Positions 30,936-39,279 of a DNA stretch of 64,000 bases are shown here, one piece after another. The first letter of the stretch is position 1; each line of letters begins with the position of its first letter. The DNA is taken from NCBI GenBank assembly GCA_902762305.1, contig CACWNW010000009.1, forward strand, positions 1 through 64,000, read 5' to 3'. The notes under the pieces were generated by a model. The model was given only the letters and a program-made list of their open reading frames with translations, did no database searches and was not told the DNA's origin. The stretch is from Fibrobacter succinogenes. Lineage in GTDB: Bacteria > Fibrobacterota > Fibrobacteria > Fibrobacterales > Fibrobacteraceae. The position numbers and the translations under genes were made by a program.

Positions 30936-31026
30936 CGTCATCCTGAATGAAGCATCGCAGATGCGGGGAGAAGGATCCAGTCCATATGTTTGGGCCTGGA
31001 TTCCTCGACTTCGCCTCGGAATGACG
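30936..31026. repeat. Long inverted dispersed repeat
   Basis: CGTCATCCTGAA at one end faces CGGAATGACG at the other, with AGGATCCAGTCC opposite GGCCTGGATTCC inside, so the 90 bp can fold as one hairpin. It occupies the gap between the convergent folD and 31031-31360 genes and is related to the repeat near 27069. Confidence 0.7.
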
Positions 31027-31030
31027 TAGG

Positions 31031-31360
31031 TTACCGCTTCTGCCACTCGCGTTCAACGGCATCCGCTTCGGCGGAGTTCGGAGAGAGCATGTTCTTCATG
31101 GTCTCGCCCACGAACTTCGCGCCAATCCCGATAACCGTCCCCATCGTGGAATCGTTGGAATACTCGCGACTGTCCATCGTGGATGTCGCTCCGCTCGCGG
31201 CCCTGTCGTTGCGCAGCGAGGCGCTGTCCGAATAAACTAGAGGGCGGTTCTTCGTCCCGCCGGAAAGGTCAACCGAATCAGCCGCAGACGGCTTTTTCTG
31301 CACCAGCTGTGCGCTTGCCGAAACGGCAGCAATAAACAATAACGTCAATACAAGTCTCAT
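31031..31360 (-). CDS. Small exported protein, function unknown
   Basis: 109 residues. Signal peptide MRLVLTLLFIAAVSASA with cleavage before QLVQ. The mature 90 residues are Ser/Asp/Arg-rich and polar (SASLRNDRAASGATSTMDSREYS) followed by a helical segment GTVIGIGAKFVGETMKNML that could be amphipathic. No family recognised. Its ATG overlaps by 4 nt the stop of a possible short membrane-peptide frame upstream. Probably periplasmic or surface. Confidence 0.6.
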   Translation of the reverse strand: MRLVLTLLFIAAVSASAQLVQKKPSAADSVDLSGGTKNRPLVYSDSASLRNDRAASGATSTMDSREYSNDSTMGTVIGIGAKFVGETMKNMLSPNSAEADAVEREWQKR

Positions 31361-31476
31361 ATCCGCTGCTCAATATAGCTCTTGTGAGCAGGGCGGGCAA
31401 GCCTATTGACTACAAAGTTGTAGCCTACGACGGCTATTGCGCCTAAAAAAAGGACCCGTTTCTGCACATTTTTCAA
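31357..31476 (-). CDS. Possible small membrane peptide upstream of the exported protein
   Basis: A short frame from TTG at 31476 (or GTG at 31467) encodes about 39 residues: KNVQKRVLFLGAIAVVGYN and then FVVNRLARPAHKSYIEQRI. It has a basic start, one hydrophobic helix and a basic tail. TAGGA lies about 8 nt before the TTG, and it ends in a 4-nt ATGA overlap with the next gene, the pattern of coupled genes. There is no homology evidence, so this is a weak call. Confidence 0.3.
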   Translation of the reverse strand: MKNVQKRVLFLGAIAVVGYNFVVNRLARPAHKSYIEQRI

Positions 31477-31552
31477 AAAAATTTTCCTAATGACATTATT
31501 TGTCGCACGGAGAGTGTATATTAAATGGGTATGCGATACGGAAATGCACATA

Positions 31553-31643
31553 TACAAAACGAGGGTCCCCTTGCGGGAACCCTATTTAGTGCTAGTTTTT
31601 CAGCTTATTACTGGCGAAAAACCTCATTTCCTAAGTCACTAAT
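31553..31643 (-). ncRNA. tracrRNA of the type II-C CRISPR system
   Basis: The minus strand at 31636-31611 reads ACTTAGGAAATGAGG then TTTTTCGCCAG, matching the CRISPR repeat core over 24 bp with two extra U; it is therefore the anti-repeat that pairs with the crRNA repeat. A short GCU/AGC nexus-like stem follows near 31605-31592. The 3' end is a terminator: a 9-bp stem AGGGTTCCC/GGGGACCCT with a GCAA tetraloop (31562-31583), then TCGTTTTGTAT. A promoter (TTGACT, 17 nt, TATAAT) lies just upstream. The predicted RNA is about 90 nt and is divergent from cas9. Confidence 0.88.
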
Positions 31644-31647
31644 GACC

Positions 31648-31678
31648 ATATTATAATATTTTTATTTGGGAAAGTCAA
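31648..31678. promoter_or_regulatory. Divergent promoter of tracrRNA and possibly cas9
   Basis: On the minus strand TTGACT (31678-31673) is 17 nt from TATAAT (31655-31650), a near-consensus sigma-70 promoter for tracrRNA. The -10 lies in a perfect 12-bp palindrome ATATTATAATAT (31648-31659), so the plus strand also has TATAAT (31652-31657) facing cas9. Confidence 0.75.
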
Positions 31679-31694
31679 TAGAAGGAATAAAAAA

Positions 31695-34600
31695 ATGGAA
31701 AAAAAGCGCTATCGCCTCGGAATAGACCTCGGAACGGCAAGCATCGGTACCGCACTTGTTGAATTGGATGGTCCTGCAAATCGTCCTTATCCCACAAATA
31801 TCCTTCACATGGGCGTGCGCATATTTGATGATGGACGTGACCCCAAAACAAAAGTTCCGCTCGGCGTTGCACGCAGAATGGCAAAGCAGAATAGAAAAAT
31901 GCTCGACCGTTACCTTAGGCGCCGCAAGCGCCTTATTGACGCTCTCATTGAATTTAAGATTTGGCCAACAGACGAAGCCCAAAGGAAGGCTCTTTGCCTT
32001 TTGAATCCCTATGATATCAGAACCCGTGCTCTAGACGAGAAGGTTTCTCTGCACGAACTCGGGAGAGCTATTTTCCACCTCAACCAGCGCCGCGGATTCA
32101 AGAGCAACAGAAAGACGGATGGCGGAGAAGACGGCAAAATCAGGCAGGCTGTCGCCAAACTTGAAGAAACATTCCAAAAAGAAGGCTGCCGGACTTTAGG
32201 CGAGTTCTATCAAAAGTGCATTGAAAGAGGTCTATCCGTTCGTGCAAGGTTAGAAGGTGCCGGTGCGAAAGCGGAATATCCATTCTACCCGTCTCGTCAA
32301 ATGATAGAATGCGAATTTGACAAGATTTGGAACAAACAGGCCGAATTCTATCCAGACATTTTAACAAAACAGGCAAAGAAAAAAATCAAAGAAACGCTTC
32401 TCTATCAGCGTCCGTTGAAACCTGTAAAGCCCGGTAAATGTTTCCTAGAACCTAATGAAGACCGCGCTCCAATTGCAAGCCCGTATTTCCAACGCTTTAG
32501 GATTTTACAAACAATCAATGAGTTAAGAATTATCAGCCGTTACGGCGACCAAAGATCACTCACCTTAGAAGAGCGTAATATTCTTCTAGATGATCTTTCG
32601 CAGAAAAAGGAACTGAAATTTTCTGCAGCAAAAAAACTCCTTTCTTTGTCCGTTTACGACAGATTCAGTATCCAAGATGAGCGTCGCGACAAATTCCAGG
32701 GCGACCAGATTGCGGTTTTACTCGGCAACAAGAAATATTTCGGCAAAAATTGGAAATCATTGCCATTAGAAAATCAAAACGCAATCGTTGCTGAACTAAT
32801 CAATCAAGATGATACGGAAAACCTAATTAAGACATTATGCGCATTCGGCCTTTCCAAAGAGGCTGCGGCCCAACTATCCGAAGAAACTCTCCCCACTGGT
32901 TACGGGCGTCTTTCTCTTGTGGCATTGAAGAAAATTATACCCTTCCTTGAAGAAGCTGTCATTACATATTCCGAAGCTGCTGCCAAGGCGGGCTACAACC
33001 ACAGCGATAATTACACCGGAGAAATTTTCCACTATCTACCCTACTACGGGAAAGTCCTTGAAAACAGGGTCATGCGCGGAAGCGGTAACGAAGCCGATAA
33101 TGATGAAGACCGCTATGGTAAAGTCGGTAACCCAACCGTCCACATTGCATTGAATCAACTTCGACGTGTCGTGAACTGCGTCATAAAGCATTTTGGCGCC
33201 CCAGAACAAATCGTTATTGAAGTCGCCCGCGACCTCAAGATGACGCAGGACGAATTAAAAGATTACAAGAAGAAGCAAGCAGACAATGAAAAGCGTAATG
33301 AACGCATTGATGAAGAATTAAGGAAACTGGGTCAATCTGTTAATCGTGAAAATCGCGAACGTTTCAAGTTATGGGAAGAACTTGCCGATGACCCCAAAGA
33401 ACGTTGCTGCCCCTATACAGGCGAATGTATAAGCATGACAAGGCTGTTCTCCGACGAAGTTGAAATAGAACACATTCTTCCGTTCGCGCAAACATACGAA
33501 GATTCATTGGCAAACAAAACGCTTTCCATGCGATACGCCAATAGACTCAAACAAAACCGCTCCCCTTACGAGGCTTTTGCAGAGCATTCCTATAAAGGAA
33601 TCCTCCCTTATCAAAAAATGCTTGACAACCTTCAAAAAAAAGGCAAGGCTTGGGAAAACAAACGTTGGCGTTTTGAAAAAGGGGCGATGGACAGATATAA
33701 CGCAAATGGAGATTTCCAAGCAAGGCAGTTGACTGATACCGCATATGCTTCCCGCTTGGCACTTGAATATCTCAAATTCGTATGTCCCAAGGACTCTATT
33801 TGGGCGATTCCAGGAAAAATGACCTCTATACTTAGGCGTCAATGGGGGCTGAATAGCATTCTTGGCAGGGAAATGCCTGACGGTTCATTTAAAAAAAGCC
33901 GCGACCATCACGGACACCACGCCATTGATGGACTTGTAATTGCCATGACTGATAGAGCGCTACTAAAAAAAGTGTCCAAAATAACCCAACTTAATTGGGA
34001 ACGTCAAGAAAGAATCCTTTCCCATATTGAGCCGCCGATTATTGACATTTTTGACCAAGCAAAAGAACGGCTTTCTCATTTGGTTGTTTCTCATCGCAAA
34101 GATCATGGATTGGGTGGAGCGCTTCATAACGATACCGCCTACGGGATTGTTGGTGAATTTAAAGAAGGCGAGGTTTCTACAGTACGGCATAAAGTTCCGA
34201 TAACATCCATTACAGGTTCAAATTTCAACCAAATTCAAGACGAGTCCATCCGTTATGGCATTCAAAACCTAATAGCGGAATCTTCTTCTGACGCAGCTCT
34301 AAAAGATGCTATCAACGAATACGCAAGCAGGACAGGTATAAGAAGGGTTTCCCTTATAGAAAAATTGTCGGTTGTTCCTATTAAGGATAAATCTGGCCAT
34401 ATCTACAAGGCTTTTAAACCTGATGGTAATTACTGTTATGACATCTGGGCGAATGGTGACAAATGGGAGGGAAAAATCGTCAGCAGATTTGAAGCGAATA
34501 CGCAAGGAGCCAATAAGTCCAAGAACGTATTAATGCGATTAATTGTCGGAGACACAGTTTGCCGCGAAATAAACGGCAAAAAAGATTACCTTCGATTAGT

Positions 34601-34793
34601 AAAAATGTCTTTAGGACGAATTACATTTGCCCCAATTTTTGAAGCGGGAGCATTAAAAACACGTGATAGCGATCCCAAAGACCCATTTAAGTATATCACA
34701 ATATCGCCAAACCTATTAAAACAAAATAAAACTCGACTTATTCACGTAGACGAATGCGGTTTTGTATACGATCCCGGATTTAAGGAGAAATGA
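31695..34793 (+). CDS. cas9: CRISPR-associated endonuclease Cas9, type II-C
   Basis: 1032 residues, in the size range of compact II-C Cas9. Start ATG at 31695 follows AAGGA. RuvC-I is YRLGIDLGTASIG (Asp11); the Arg-rich bridge helix is RKMLDRYLRRRKRLIDAL; RuvC-II is QIVIEVARDLK (Glu509); the HNH domain has a CPYTGE lead-in and EVEIEHILPFAQ with His593; RuvC-III is HGHHAIDGLVIA (His742, Asp745). All nuclease residues are intact, so it should cut both strands of target DNA guided by crRNA:tracrRNA. The gene overlaps cas1 by 4 nt. The PAM-interacting C-terminal domain (about 850-1032) gives no PAM prediction by eye. Confidence 0.96.
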   Translation: MEKKRYRLGIDLGTASIGTALVELDGPANRPYPTNILHMGVRIFDDGRDPKTKVPLGVARRMAKQNRKMLDRYLRRRKRLIDALIEFKIWPTDEAQRKALCLLNPYDIRTRALDEKVSLHELGRAIFHLNQRRGFKSNRKTDGGEDGKIRQAVAKLEETFQKEGCRTLGEFYQKCIERGLSVRARLEGAGAKAEYPFYPSRQMIECEFDKIWNKQAEFYPDILTKQAKKKIKETLLYQRPLKPVKPGKCFLEPNEDRAPIASPYFQRFRILQTINELRIISRYGDQRSLTLEERNILLDDLSQKKELKFSAAKKLLSLSVYDRFSIQDERRDKFQGDQIAVLLGNKKYFGKNWKSLPLENQNAIVAELINQDDTENLIKTLCAFGLSKEAAAQLSEETLPTGYGRLSLVALKKIIPFLEEAVITYSEAAAKAGYNHSDNYTGEIFHYLPYYGKVLENRVMRGSGNEADNDEDRYGKVGNPTVHIALNQLRRVVNCVIKHFGAPEQIVIEVARDLKMTQDELKDYKKKQADNEKRNERIDEELRKLGQSVNRENRERFKLWEELADDPKERCCPYTGECISMTRLFSDEVEIEHILPFAQTYEDSLANKTLSMRYANRLKQNRSPYEAFAEHSYKGILPYQKMLDNLQKKGKAWENKRWRFEKGAMDRYNANGDFQARQLTDTAYASRLALEYLKFVCPKDSIWAIPGKMTSILRRQWGLNSILGREMPDGSFKKSRDHHGHHAIDGLVIAMTDRALLKKVSKITQLNWERQERILSHIEPPIIDIFDQAKERLSHLVVSHRKDHGLGGALHNDTAYGIVGEFKEGEVSTVRHKVPITSITGSNFNQIQDESIRYGIQNLIAESSSDAALKDAINEYASRTGIRRVSLIEKLSVVPIKDKSGHIYKAFKPDGNYCYDIWANGDKWEGKIVSRFEANTQGANKSKNVLMRLIVGDTVCREINGKKDYLRLVKMSLGRITFAPIFEAGALKTRDSDPKDPFKYITISPNLLKQNKTRLIHVDECGFVYDPGFKEK

Positions 34794-35710
34794 TAGGTAG
34801 AATTCTAGAAATAGGAACTCCCGGAAAGTTTTTAAAACTTTTCCGTGGGTTCTGCATTATAGAAGAAAAAGGTTCCGAGTTGGGAAGAATTGCCCTTGAT
34901 GACTTGGAATCTGTCATCCTACATTCTCCCGATGGAATCATATCGTACCAACTGTTAGCAGAATTCGCAGACCGGAATATTCCGGTCATTTTTTGCAACG
35001 AAAAGCACATGCCCATAGGCATATATTGGGGGCTCAACGGGCATTACCAAGGATCCAAACGCATCAATCTACAAGCTCAACTGAGTTTACCCAAAAGAAA
35101 GCAAATATGGCAGCAAATCGTTATTGAAAAAATCAAAAACCAAGCTACCGTATTAAAAGCAGCAAAATTAGACTATCTAGACCTTGAGTATTTTGCAAAT
35201 AACGTAAAATCAGGAGATTCAGACAACCGCGAGGGAATCGCTGCTCAGGCCTACTGGTCTCGACTTTTTGGTTCTGAATTTCGAAGGAATCCCGACTTAG
35301 ATGGGATAAACGCATTTCTAAATTACGGCTATGCCATTTTACGAGCAAGCGTGACTAGAGCAATCGTTGCAGTGGGTTTGCACCCAGCTTTCTCTTTGTT
35401 CCACCACAATTCAGAAGACCCCACCCCTTTGGCAAATGATTTAATGGAGCCATGGCGTCCTATTGTCGATATCGCCGTCTACAAATTGTATCTAGCCGAA
35501 AAATCGGAACTTACCTCAAAAGAAAAAGGGACTCTAACCCAAGTATTAGAATGGGATCTAGAGCTAAACAATCAGCGTTCTCCTCTCCGAATTTGCCTCC
35601 AACGCCTATGCAATAGTTTTGTGGATATCTGTGAAGGGAATTCGTCAAATCTTCTATTTGCCAAAATTCCTTCTATTGAAGAGATTCAAGAAGAATGGTC
35701 TGAAGTTTGA
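34790..35710 (+). CDS. cas1: CRISPR integrase Cas1 (type II)
   Basis: 306 residues, starting in an ATGA overlap with cas9 and supported by AGGAG. Metal-binding residues are visible: Glu in DNREGIAAQAYW, His in AVGLHPAFSLFH and Asp in DLMEPWRPIVD. The N-terminal beta-domain (ILEIGTPGKFLKLFRGF) and the II-type GFDP-equivalent region are normal. With Cas2 it integrates new spacers at the leader end of the array. There is no csn2 or cas4, as expected for subtype II-C. Confidence 0.95.
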   Translation: MIGRILEIGTPGKFLKLFRGFCIIEEKGSELGRIALDDLESVILHSPDGIISYQLLAEFADRNIPVIFCNEKHMPIGIYWGLNGHYQGSKRINLQAQLSLPKRKQIWQQIVIEKIKNQATVLKAAKLDYLDLEYFANNVKSGDSDNREGIAAQAYWSRLFGSEFRRNPDLDGINAFLNYGYAILRASVTRAIVAVGLHPAFSLFHHNSEDPTPLANDLMEPWRPIVDIAVYKLYLAEKSELTSKEKGTLTQVLEWDLELNNQRSPLRICLQRLCNSFVDICEGNSSNLLFAKIPSIEEIQEEWSEV

Positions 35711-36039
35711 AAAGACTTAGTGGATATAGAATTTTGTGGCTGATGGTCCTTTTTGATTTACCTGTTGTTGAAGAGCCCGATAGAAAGGCCGCAACGGCTT
35801 TTCGGCAATTTCTGCTAGACGAAGGATTTGAAATGGCCCAATTTTCAGTTTATATGCGGCACTGTTCCGGCAAGGAACATGCAGAAAAATACTACCGCCA
35901 TATAGAAATGAACCTTCCTCCTGGAGGCAAGGTTCACATCATCACAATAACAGACAAACAATTTGAAAACATCGTGCGTTTTCAAAACAGTTTTCAAGAG
36001 CCTCGCAAAAAAAATCCAGACCAGTTATGCCTGTTCTAG
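35707..36039 (+). CDS. cas2: CRISPR-associated protein Cas2
   Basis: 110 residues from TTG at 35707, overlapping the cas1 stop by 4 nt. The opening RLSGYRILWLMVLFDLPV and the middle FEMAQFSVYMRHC match type II-C Cas2 along its full length, which favours the TTG over the internal ATG at 35743. The C-terminus GGKVHIITITDKQFENIVRF is also typical. It forms the structural core of the Cas1-Cas2 integrase. A T-run follows the stop codon and may end the cas transcript just before the array. Confidence 0.93.
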   Translation: MKRLSGYRILWLMVLFDLPVVEEPDRKAATAFRQFLLDEGFEMAQFSVYMRHCSGKEHAEKYYRHIEMNLPPGGKVHIITITDKQFENIVRFQNSFQEPRKKNPDQLCLF

Positions 36040-36110
36040 CTTTTTTTTGCCCGTTTTTCTGGCGGATTAGTCGGCTAACCTGCTGTTTTACAACACTTTA
36101 GCGCGAAACT
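36040..36110. other. Putative spacer-insertion leader between cas2 and the array
   Basis: 71 bp between the cas2 stop and the first intact repeat, with a T8 run at 36042-36049 and TTTACAACACTTTAGCGCG next to the repeat. The array decays at its opposite end, so new spacers most likely enter here. Confidence 0.5.
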
Positions 36111-38057
36111 AATATAGAAACTTAGGAAATGAGGTTTCGCCAGAACGAAAAATTCTGATGCGGGAATGTAGTCTTCAATATAGAAACTTAGGAAATGAGG
36201 TTTCGCCAGAACTCGCCAGAGCAAGCGTCTCGCTATTTTTTAAATATAGAAACTTAGGAAATGAGGTTTCGCCAGAACTGAGATAGTTAACGGGGAGCAG
36301 AAATTTTAAATATAGAAACTTAGGAAATGAGGTTTCGCCAGAACAGAATTGATTGATGTTTATGTTGATTGAAAAATATAGAAACTTAGGAAATGAGGTT
36401 TCGCCAGAACGACCCACAACTCACGCAACAGCAACAAGAAATATAGAAACTTAGGAAATGAGGTTTCGCCAGAACACTTTCATCTTCGACATAAAACCAA
36501 GGTCTAATATAGAAACTTAGGAAATGAGGTTTCGCCAGAACCCGCCGGGCGTCCCGGACCTCGCCCGAGTGAATATAGAAACTTAGGAAATGAGGTTTCG
36601 CCAGAACCACCTGTCGCAAATTAACGTAATGTTCATAAATATAGAAACTTAGGAAATGAGGTTTCGCCAGAACTTGGCGATGGGCTTGTTCAGGTTCCCA
36701 AGAAATATAGAAACTTAGGAAATGAGGTTTCGCCAGAACTCGGACTATTCTGAGGAAGAGCGTCTACTTAATATAGAAACTTAGGAAATGAGGTTTCGCC
36801 AGAACCATATTAAGCTTAAGTATTTGAGCGCGCTTAATATAGAAACTTAGGAAATGAGGTTTCGCCAGAACCAGCGTGATTCTGTTAAGCTCGAAACGGC
36901 TAATATAGAAACTTAGGAAATGAGGTTTCGCCAGAACAAGTCAATTGTCTGTTCCGACAGGTCGTGGAATATAGAAACTTAGGAAATGAGGTTTCGCCAG
37001 AACGATTACATCGATGTAACGTATGACAGTTTGAATATAGAAACTTAGGAAATGAGGTTTCGCCAGAACTCACCGACACCCTTTCCGACATACTCACCAA
37101 TATAGAAACTTAGGAAATGAGGTTTCGCCAGAACCTGAAAGCAAATCACAACATATTACCGGACAATATAGAAACTTAGGAAATGAGGTTTCGCCAGAAC
37201 TCCGTGAGTGGCTTTGGCGTGAATATGATTAATATAGAAACTTAGGAAATGAGGTTTCGCCAGAACTGGATAGGATGTGTCGGCCTCGCGACGATGAATA
37301 TAGAAACTTAGGAAATGAGGTTTCGCCAGAACTTCGACTGCCGCCCTGCCCATCTAAAGTTTAATATAGAAACTTAGGAAATGAGGTTTCGCCAGAACAT
37401 GCTCGCTATCGAGGATTCGTTCGAGACTAATATAGAAACTTAGGAAATGAGGTTTCGCCAGAACTCGCACGTTAAACAAGTAAGAGTGCACGCCAAATAT
37501 AGAAACTTAGGAAATGAGGTTTCGCCAGAACAATACAATGCGATGTGGCGCAAGAAGAACAAATATAGAAACTTAGGAAATGAGGTTTCGCCAGAACTCA
37601 CGGGAACCATGATGCGCAACAAACCCGAATATAGAAACTTAGGAAATGAGGTTTCGCCAGAACTCCCTGCGTAGTTCTGAATTAGGCATATTGAATATAG
37701 AAACTTAGGAAATGAGGTTTCGCCAGAACAAGGGATCCGGCTTATAGTTCTTAATGCTAAATATAGAAACTTAGGAAATGAGGTTTCGCCAGAACAGTTC
37801 AAGCATTCTCCGCATGCGGACAAAGAATATAGAAACTTAGGAAATGAGGTTTCGCCAGAACTGTTGAACTTGGCACCAAAATTTTTGATTTAATATAGAA
37901 ACTTAGGAAATGAGGTTTCGCCAGAACAGACCCATGTATTCCACGTCCGGCTCGTGAATATAGAAACTTAGGAAACAAGGTCTCGTTAGAACCTTCTATG
38001 TCACAATGTTCGCTAATATTAAATATAGAAATTTATGAAACAAAATTTCGCCAAAGC
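36111..38057 (-). CRISPR. Type II-C CRISPR array, 30 repeats and 29 spacers
   Basis: Repeat length is 36 bp; on the plus strand it begins AATATAGAAACTTAGG and ends GAGGTTTCGCCAGAAC. Twenty-eight copies appear identical (starts 36111, 36177 ... 37892). Copies 29 (37957-37992) and 30 (38022-38057) are degenerate, the last with about nine changes. Spacers are 29-31 nt, mostly 30. The tracrRNA anti-repeat is on the minus strand, so crRNAs read right to left with the repeat as GTTCTGGCGAAACC...TTTCTATATT. In that direction each repeat ends in TATATT, a -10-like hexamer. No spacer source could be searched. Confidence 0.98.
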
Positions 38058-38228
38058 AAAATTTTACTGTCGTCGACATGGTTGGCAAATATGCCATGTA
38101 TTTTTGTGGCAGTCCAAATACTTGAAAAGCCGTTATTTTCAGCGATCAACAACCCACCATTCCTCCCCCATTTTCACACAAAAATCCTATAAAACTATTT
38201 TACGTCATTTTATGACACACCCTAAATC

Positions 38229-38234
38229 TATATT
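38229..38234 (+). promoter_or_regulatory. -10-like element for the 38266 gene
   Basis: TATATT 32 nt before the ATG, with an AGGAGG ribosome-binding site between. The 208-nt gap from the array to the gene is AT-rich and otherwise shows only a short TGGCA-AATA-TGCCA inverted repeat. Confidence 0.4.
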
Positions 38235-38265
38235 TTCATTGTAACCTTCAACAAGGAGGCCTACA

Positions 38266-39279
38266 ATGGCAAAGGATATCTTCTACGTCAAGGTCGAGAC
38301 GGCCAAGGCGGCAACCGTCTACGCCTTCACCCGGAGCGAAACCGGCATCATGGACTACGCGGGCACGGCAACGCCATCCGCCGATGAACTCTCGCAGATG
38401 CAGTGCGTCGAGGGGAGCGCCTACTTCACGCCTTCGTGGTACACCTACCTGCCCAAGGAGCTGCAGGCGGAAATCACGGTATTCATACCGGCCGCCATCA
38501 AGGACCTGGATGCGAACCAGTATTCCTTCTTGCTGCACGTGGGCGCCCTGCTGCTCGCCGTACAGGAACGCGACAGCCTCCTCACCGCCGAACTCCTGCA
38601 CCGGCGTTCGATGGTCTTCGCGAGCTTCACGCCGATCCTGCTGCACATCCTGAAGCCCGTCGCGGCCGAGGCACTTTTCGCATGGGTCTACGGGAACTTC
38701 AGCGGCAACGGCAACTTCAAGAACATCTACGCGGTCGACGCGCCCATCTCCACCGGCGAGACCGACACGGCGGCAATCCTCTTCGCGGCCGCGCGCGACG
38801 CGCTCGAGCCCGTACCGCACAAGGAATCGCCCGAAGAAATGTTCATCCGTTACTTCGGCGAGGGCACTAGGCGTTTCGATTTCACCATCGGGATAGTCGG
38901 TACCGCGAACCACCCGTGGGTCGACGGTGTCGAGAAATTCGGGGTCATCTCCGATGCCGCGGTCAGCTTCCATTTCGGCGACGACCCCGCGGCCGCCGGC
39001 AAAAAACACCAGGAAATCTTCGCATCGCTCAAGACGAAGGTGCAGGCGGAACCGTACAACCCGCACGACCACAACGCCATCAGCGTGGGCATCGACGACC
39101 TGGAAGCCGTCCTCAAGGGCGTCCCGAGCAAGAGCAAGGCGGGCTACCTGCGGGCGACAGGCGCCGCCATCCTCCGCAAGGCGCGACCGAACCTGTACTG
39201 CTACGATTCCTCGCTCTGGCGCATCGGCGGCAATCCCGACTACTTCGAGAACGCCATCGTGGTGCGGATACGGTTCTAA
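38266..39279 (+). CDS. Protein of unknown function next to the CRISPR array
   Basis: 337 residues from ATG at 38266, with a full AGGAGG 8 nt upstream. No signal peptide or membrane helix. The N-terminal half has a long helical stretch (FLLHVGALLLAVQERDSLLTAELLHRR); the C-terminal half is mixed (FDFTIGIVGTANHPWVDGV, HFGDDPAAAGKKHQEIF) and ends NAIVVRIRF. It is GC-rich, unlike the AT-rich array edge. I recognise no domain. A second unrecognised GC-rich gene follows after a palindrome. Soluble cytoplasmic protein is the only safe statement. Confidence 0.65.
   Translation: MAKDIFYVKVETAKAATVYAFTRSETGIMDYAGTATPSADELSQMQCVEGSAYFTPSWYTYLPKELQAEITVFIPAAIKDLDANQYSFLLHVGALLLAVQERDSLLTAELLHRRSMVFASFTPILLHILKPVAAEALFAWVYGNFSGNGNFKNIYAVDAPISTGETDTAAILFAAARDALEPVPHKESPEEMFIRYFGEGTRRFDFTIGIVGTANHPWVDGVEKFGVISDAAVSFHFGDDPAAAGKKHQEIFASLKTKVQAEPYNPHDHNAISVGIDDLEAVLKGVPSKSKAGYLRATGAAILRKARPNLYCYDSSLWRIGGNPDYFENAIVVRIRF

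Follow-up and report, generated by a model that had tools for sequence, protein, structure and literature searches.

Predicted promoters within the repeats of a type II-C CRISPR array from Fibrobacter succinogenes

A 64,000-nt stretch of Fibrobacter succinogenes DNA (positions 1 to 64,000 of contig CACWNW010000009.1, assembly GCA_902762305.1; hereafter the window) carries a type II-C CRISPR-Cas locus (cas9-cas1-cas2), and every repeat of its array very probably ends in a promoter of its own, from which each spacer would be expressed separately. The anatomy and direction of the array, the conservation of the repeat end, the host's preference for the hexamer found there and the sparing of that hexamer from decay were all read directly from the sequence. 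An earlier sequence-only reading had likened the arrangement to one known in type II-C, and the literature agrees, describing repeat-embedded promoters as characteristic of the subtype (PMC3656092; PMC12080349), with Campylobacter and Neisseria as known cases. The present analysis adds a predicted case from Fibrobacterota and draws part of its evidence from promoters of the host itself.

The locus, its tracrRNA and the direction of transcription

The cas genes and the predicted tracrRNA gene are arranged as follows.

31562..31643, minus strand: predicted tracrRNA, from 7 nt past its -10 element to the terminator (promoter and terminator recognised, ends inferred)
31562..31583, minus strand: tracrRNA terminator hairpin, a 9-pair stem then CGTTTT (from sequence)
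31611..31641, minus strand: anti-repeat, resembling repeat positions 4-32 (score 45; best of 20 shuffled repeats, 31)
31650..31678, minus strand: tracrRNA promoter TTGACT-17-TATAAT (11/12)
31695..34793, plus strand: cas9, 1032 aa (TIGR01865, E 1.3e-192)
34790..35710, plus strand: cas1, 306 aa (TIGR03639 cas1_NMENI, E 4.7e-76)
35707..36039, plus strand: cas2, 110 aa (TIGR01573, E 9.3e-16)
36040..36110, no strand: stretch from cas2 to the newest repeat, on the leader side (decay at the opposite end; leader role inferred)

The genes cas9, cas1 and cas2, named by NCBIfam, were adjacent and followed by the array, with no further long open reading frame between them. Both csn2 and cas4 were absent, as in type II-C. 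The compact Cas9 was 37-39% identical over nearly its full length to those of Novosphingobium, Limnohabitans and Nitrobacter; its nearest relatives were thus of type II-C, and its solved relatives included 6jdq/6jdv, presumably Neisseria Cas9. The marks of type II-A, csn2 and a leader promoter that reads the newest spacer first, were not found at the locus, because no csn2 stood among the three genes and because repeat decay and tracrRNA direction placed the newest spacers downstream. In a close relative of the same genus (G063), Cas9 was 83% identical and the repeat was identical to that of the window. G063 also encodes a TIGR02147 (Fsuc_second) protein, which supports describing the host as Fibrobacter-type and its phylum as Fibrobacterota. 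The array of the G063 locus (L033, G063:C1:859000-872000) lay directly after cas9, with no space between for cas1 and cas2. Viral contigs searched with the Cas9 held no relative.

The predicted tracrRNA gene lay on the minus strand between cas9 and the gene upstream of cas9. None of 500 shuffled versions of the intergenic strand reached its promoter score, and the predicted 86-nt RNA (31558-31643) folded with a z of -3.6; an Rfam search of 31000-39000 returned no family, tracrRNA included. The match of the anti-repeat to repeat positions 4-32 makes the GTT end of the repeat the pairing end, which sets transcription of the array on the minus strand, in the direction of cas2. The minus-strand direction that the sequence-only reading had taken from the tracrRNA was borne out by the promoter, the terminator and the anti-repeat together. 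Judged by sequence, the array is transcribed opposite to the cas genes and towards the leader, as in type II-C. An outside match to the repeat, clearly above shuffled repeats, was present for 87 of 97 arrays and, with a single exception among those 87, began within repeat positions 1-8, although some of these matches were second arrays rather than tracrRNAs (anti-repeat scores equal to a full-length match).

The array itself comprises the following features.

36111..38057, minus strand: CRISPR array, 30 repeats and 29 spacers, transcribed towards cas2 (from sequence)
36111..36116, minus strand: TATATT, putative -10 element of the cas2-proximal repeat (from sequence)
37957..37992, minus strand: second-oldest repeat, 5 changes, all at repeat positions 6-17, last 19 nt intact (from sequence)
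38022..38057, minus strand: oldest repeat, at the transcription-upstream end of the array, with 8 changes within positions 2-26 and an unchanged final 10 nt, TTTCTATATT (from sequence)

The repeats were 36 nt long and were separated by spacers of 30 nt (24 spacers), 29 nt (4) or 31 nt (1). The minus-strand repeat was GTTCTGGCGAAACCTCATTTCCTAAGTTTCTATATT; 28 of the 30 copies were perfect and all lay on the same strand, and no sequence within 3 mismatches of the repeat occurred outside the array in the host assembly (G000; 3.6 Mb, 57 contigs, 95% complete). The claim that every repeat carries a -10-like hexamer stood: TATATT was present in 30 of 30 repeats, which end TTTCTATATT on the minus strand, and it formed the lowest-coordinate six nucleotides of each (36177, 36243, ... 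37957, 38022). All five changes at 37957-37992 fell in the tracrRNA-pairing part, yet this repeat is the pairing arm of the oldest spacer, and the oldest guide may be poorly used given that changed arm. A small inverted repeat (TGGCAAATATGCCA, 38083-38096) followed by a T-rich stretch on the plus strand adjoins the transcription-upstream end of the array.

From this layout a route to separate crRNAs can be proposed. RNA polymerase with its primary sigma factor would bind each repeat at the host-favoured -10 hexamer TATATT, the last six nucleotides, and would initiate about 5-8 nt inside the following spacer. Each spacer would then give its own short crRNA, transcribed in the direction of cas2 and made up of a guide of probably ~24 nt followed by the next repeat. 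About 25 nt at the start of that repeat would pair with the divergently transcribed tracrRNA and be held by Cas9, and the 3' end would presumably be trimmed. The geometry fits, as ~24 nt of a 30-nt spacer would remain downstream of a start predicted ~7 nt beyond the hexamer. Because new spacers would be added beside cas2, where transcription of the array ends, embedded promoters would let new and old spacers be expressed alike.

The repeat-end hexamer and the promoters of the host

TATATT agrees with TATAAT at 5 of 6 positions, and 45% of shuffled repeats also reach 5/6; what exceeds chance is the fixed position of the hexamer across lineages, not its match in a single repeat. Promoter usage was assessed in 1.18 Mb of host DNA plus the window without the locus, with long open reading frames, not curated annotation, serving as genes. 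TATATT was found at 115 of 112,060 positions in promoter-facing intergenic DNA and at 23 of 54,416 in convergent gaps (p 1.7e-5), or 10.3 against 4.2 per 10 kb. In co-directional gaps, copies up to 150 nt from a start were mostly oriented towards the gene (sense:antisense 45:19, p 0.0016). TATAAT in the same DNA was neither enriched (41 vs 14, p 0.16) nor oriented towards genes (11:22). The preference for TATATT had been conceived on a discovery part of the host DNA and was repeated on a second, replication part, which on its own gave p 0.018 for enrichment and 15:4 for direction (p 0.019). The hexamer that ends 30 of 30 repeats at their 3' end is thus one that the host prefers. We do not claim TATATT as the top-ranked hexamer, since by Markov-4 over-representation it was 2nd of 4095 in the discovery part and 500th of 4056 in the replication part. 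A sense-versus-antisense ranking of all hexamers was uninformative, as the set was small and divergent gaps count both ways.

TAnnnT elements following TTGACA-like boxes in the host peaked at a spacing of 17 nt (26/490), which indicated that the host uses ordinary box spacing. A -35-like element, which the sequence-only reading had asked to be sought in the repeat, did not materialise; the best match was 3/6, at 18, 20 or 21 nt. Nor did the window's repeat carry the TG of an extended -10, TTC preceding the hexamer instead. TG was present in 15 of 47 distinct repeats, and its occurrence in only part of the other repeats suggests that there is no strict requirement for it. No purine excess was seen at the predicted start in the 33 spacers of the window and G063; in 1158 other spacers purine was slightly raised at positions 7 and 8 (0.516 and 0.521 vs 0.497). 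We found this purine signal unconvincing and set it aside.

Other biases in spacer composition lay far from both ends. In 1147 distinct 30-nt II-C spacers read on the transcript strand (loci L035-L122), A was enriched at position 17 (z 8.2), C was depleted at position 14 (z -7.7) and C was enriched at position 13 (z 5.7); A was also enriched at position 30 (z 10.3). Loci with alpha-type and with beta-type repeats alike showed the A17 enrichment and the C14 depletion; of the 28 loci with at least 15 spacers, 24 had the former and 24 the latter.

The absence of a -35 element beside the repeat hexamer is a point in favour of a different reading, in which a single conventional promoter upstream of the array drives a long precursor that RNase III and tracrRNA cut as in type II-A, TATATT in the repeats being incidental. 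One candidate was found.

38061..38088, minus strand: candidate upstream promoter TTGCCA-16-TAAAAT (10/12; P = 0.088 for a 208-nt region)

This candidate would start transcription inside the oldest repeat, and RNase III was encoded in 155 of 167 Fibrobacterota assemblies, that of G063 included. Its score is weakened by the shuffles of the 208-nt region, a counterpart upstream of the G063 array was not recognised by eye (unscored), and transcription from it would put the newest spacers, on the cas2 side, last in the precursor. It also leaves unexplained the hexamer spared in decayed upstream repeats and the cross-phylum pattern described below. We therefore regard a single upstream promoter as very improbable.

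An RNase III gene was not found in the host assembly G000, where FabD and the fabG ortholog were missing as well; in G063 all three genes lie in one cluster. A genuine loss of RNase III from the host was rejected because these neighbours are missing too, and the absence is probably an assembly gap. Repeat promoters do not imply independence from RNase III, since in C. jejuni the enzyme still trims the 3' end (PMC3656092).

Promoters in individual repeats, the reading that we prefer, have close parallels. Campylobacter jejuni is the nearest in form. Each repeat of its II-C array ends in a -10 element (GGTAAAAT), as predicted here, and its crRNA pairs with tracrRNA, as the predicted anti-repeat indicates here; its starts were mapped at spacer nucleotide 5, from a crRNA promoter in the upstream repeat, whereas those of the window are predicted, and its -10 is described as extended, whereas TTTCTATATT lacks TG (PMC3656092). 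In Clostridium cellulolyticum the last nine nucleotides of the repeat resemble an extended -10, the array is transcribed opposite to the cas genes, as in the window, and the crRNA holds 23-26 nt of spacer; that RNA was measured in E. coli, whereas ours is a prediction (PMC7038990). The II-C locus of Neisseria meningitidis has a promoter in every repeat, as predicted here, and RNase III is dispensable there (PMC5006608, PMC7038990).

Repeat ends and terminal decay across lineages

Genome contigs were scanned and yielded 80 loci, to which 8 plasmid loci were added. Loci were kept if they had an array of at least 4 copies and a consensus of 33-38 nt, which left 58 arrays with 53 distinct repeats, window included. 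L040, L048 and L033 were dropped from this set for too short a consensus, and L033 was restored with its full repeat for the anti-repeat, terminal-decay, array-count and short-remnant analyses. T was found at position 31 in 52 of the 53 distinct repeats, A at position 32 in all 53 and T at position 36 in 49, and positions 33-35 were much freer (0.05-0.75 bits). A -10 element has the same profile, with T and A at its start, T at its end and a loose middle. N. meningitidis, with 36-nt repeats, 30-nt spacers and ~24-nt guides, has a repeat whose extended -10 ends TACAAT. With Fibrobacter and Bacteroidota excluded, TAnnnT stood at the last offset in 45 of 49 distinct repeats and 27 of 30 clusters, and at any other offset, on either strand, in at most 3 of 30 clusters.

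Conservation of this kind might instead reflect recognition by Cas1-Cas2 during leader-adjacent spacer insertion. Insertion does begin at the end of the repeat nearer the leader, where the hexamer lies, and GTT at the opposite end is equally conserved. Against this, positions 33-35, which vary, are those least constrained in -10 elements, and the hexamer persists in the oldest repeats, where insertion no longer takes place. In Bacteroidota, as described in the next section, the motif follows the local sigma consensus and sits 3-17 nt inside the repeat. Insertion as the sole cause appears very unlikely, a shade more so than the single upstream promoter.

Decay separates promoter from pairing function, because the upstream-most repeat is the oldest and no spacer uses it as a pairing arm, so that only its promoter would still be needed. 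Among 54 arrays with a complete upstream end, the terminal repeat was changed in 30, with 160 changes (one of them an N), whereas the cas2-side repeat was changed in 2. Only 2 of the 160 lay in the last 6 nt, against 26.7 expected if changes were even, and 2 lay in the last 10 nt; with 36-nt repeats, losses beyond about 20 nt would escape detection, which limits the loss that can be seen. Shorter remnants, with 8-9 nt left exactly 30 nt beyond the array end, were found in 2 of 52 arrays (control rate 0.64%) and end GGCTATGAT and GCTAAGCT. The terminal repeats of the window and G063 decayed independently and both kept TTTCTATATT, the G063 repeat keeping its last 19 nt; in the window, both decayed repeats (37957-37992 and 38022-38057) retain it.

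Repeats of 44-48 nt behaved similarly. Thirteen of 24 were decayed, and 101 of 107 changes fell at positions 1-20, with 6 beyond; the motif, where seen, starts at 23-31, and detection would have allowed losses into it. In one long repeat (L123) the motif itself was changed at two positions. Decay of the outer half can also arise from neutral truncation. According to a published survey of 364 arrays, mutations of the oldest repeat are concentrated in its first 15 nt, and this repeat may need to retain its promoter (PMC12080349).

A putative promoter form in Bacteroidota repeats

Promoters of Bacteroidota carry TAnnTTTG at -7 and TTTG near -33 (PMC7366714). In a first sample of 22 Bacteroidota clusters, exact TAnnTTTG was present in 5 in the sense direction and in 0 antisense, against 1.2 in shuffles (P 0.010). 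A second sample was fetched as a test, and 17 of its 20 loci, drawn from a longer match list, gave arrays. Among its 14 clusters not within 85% of the first sample, the motif was found in 7 and in 0 antisense; shuffles expect 0.85, and 0 of 500 reached 7. It lay 3-17 nt inside the repeat rather than at the end, and in 7 of the 12 motif-bearing clusters of both samples the TTG of the GTTG start lay 18-19 nt upstream of it. TAnnTT ended 6 of 18 distinct 36-nt Bacteroidota repeats, all with T at the fifth place, and 0 of 49 repeats elsewhere. In Fibrobacterota repeats TAnnTTTG was not above shuffles, long repeats holding TAnnTT-like stretches, and it was discarded there.

Not all Bacteroidota arrays conformed. 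Three clusters had only GATCTTTG, and neither promoter form was present in L183, L184, L185 and L193. The last three, whose repeats we take to be F. columnare-like and in which TAnnTTTG was absent, end CGATATT and have a repeat direction relative to cas9 opposite to that of other arrays. In Flavobacterium columnare and F. psychrophilum the repeats have been proposed to drive transcription towards the leader, and a TTG ~33-35 nt upstream of the spacer has been noted (PMC8092290, PMC10309648). Those papers point to the TTG only, whereas the -7 element TAnnTTTG was found here in other Bacteroidota repeats. No report of TAnnTTTG inside II-C repeats was met in the literature searched, a body to which subscription papers mostly did not belong.

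The proposal that each crRNA has its own promoter thus draws support from the host's -10 preference, the invariant position of the hexamer, the spared terminal repeats and the change of form in Bacteroidota, all of which favour it as a prediction. Beyond the single locus, it seems fairly likely that the II-C repeat promoter is written for the primary sigma factor of the host, lineage by lineage: a terminal TAnnnT hexamer in proteobacterial-type hosts, TATATT in the Fibrobacter-type host, and an internal TAnnTTTG in the longer Bacteroidota repeats, with the GTTG start ~18-19 nt upstream as a possible -33 box.

This tracking of sigma factors is the part worth following. It offers a possible reason why no promoter was reported in the 47-nt repeats of Riemerella (PMC5006608), where the Bacteroidota consensus must be sought. 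If the pattern is true, sigma specificity shapes the sequence and length of the repeat, and an array moved between phyla would need rewritten repeats for its expression; a direct prediction is that sigma specificity limits where a II-C array works.
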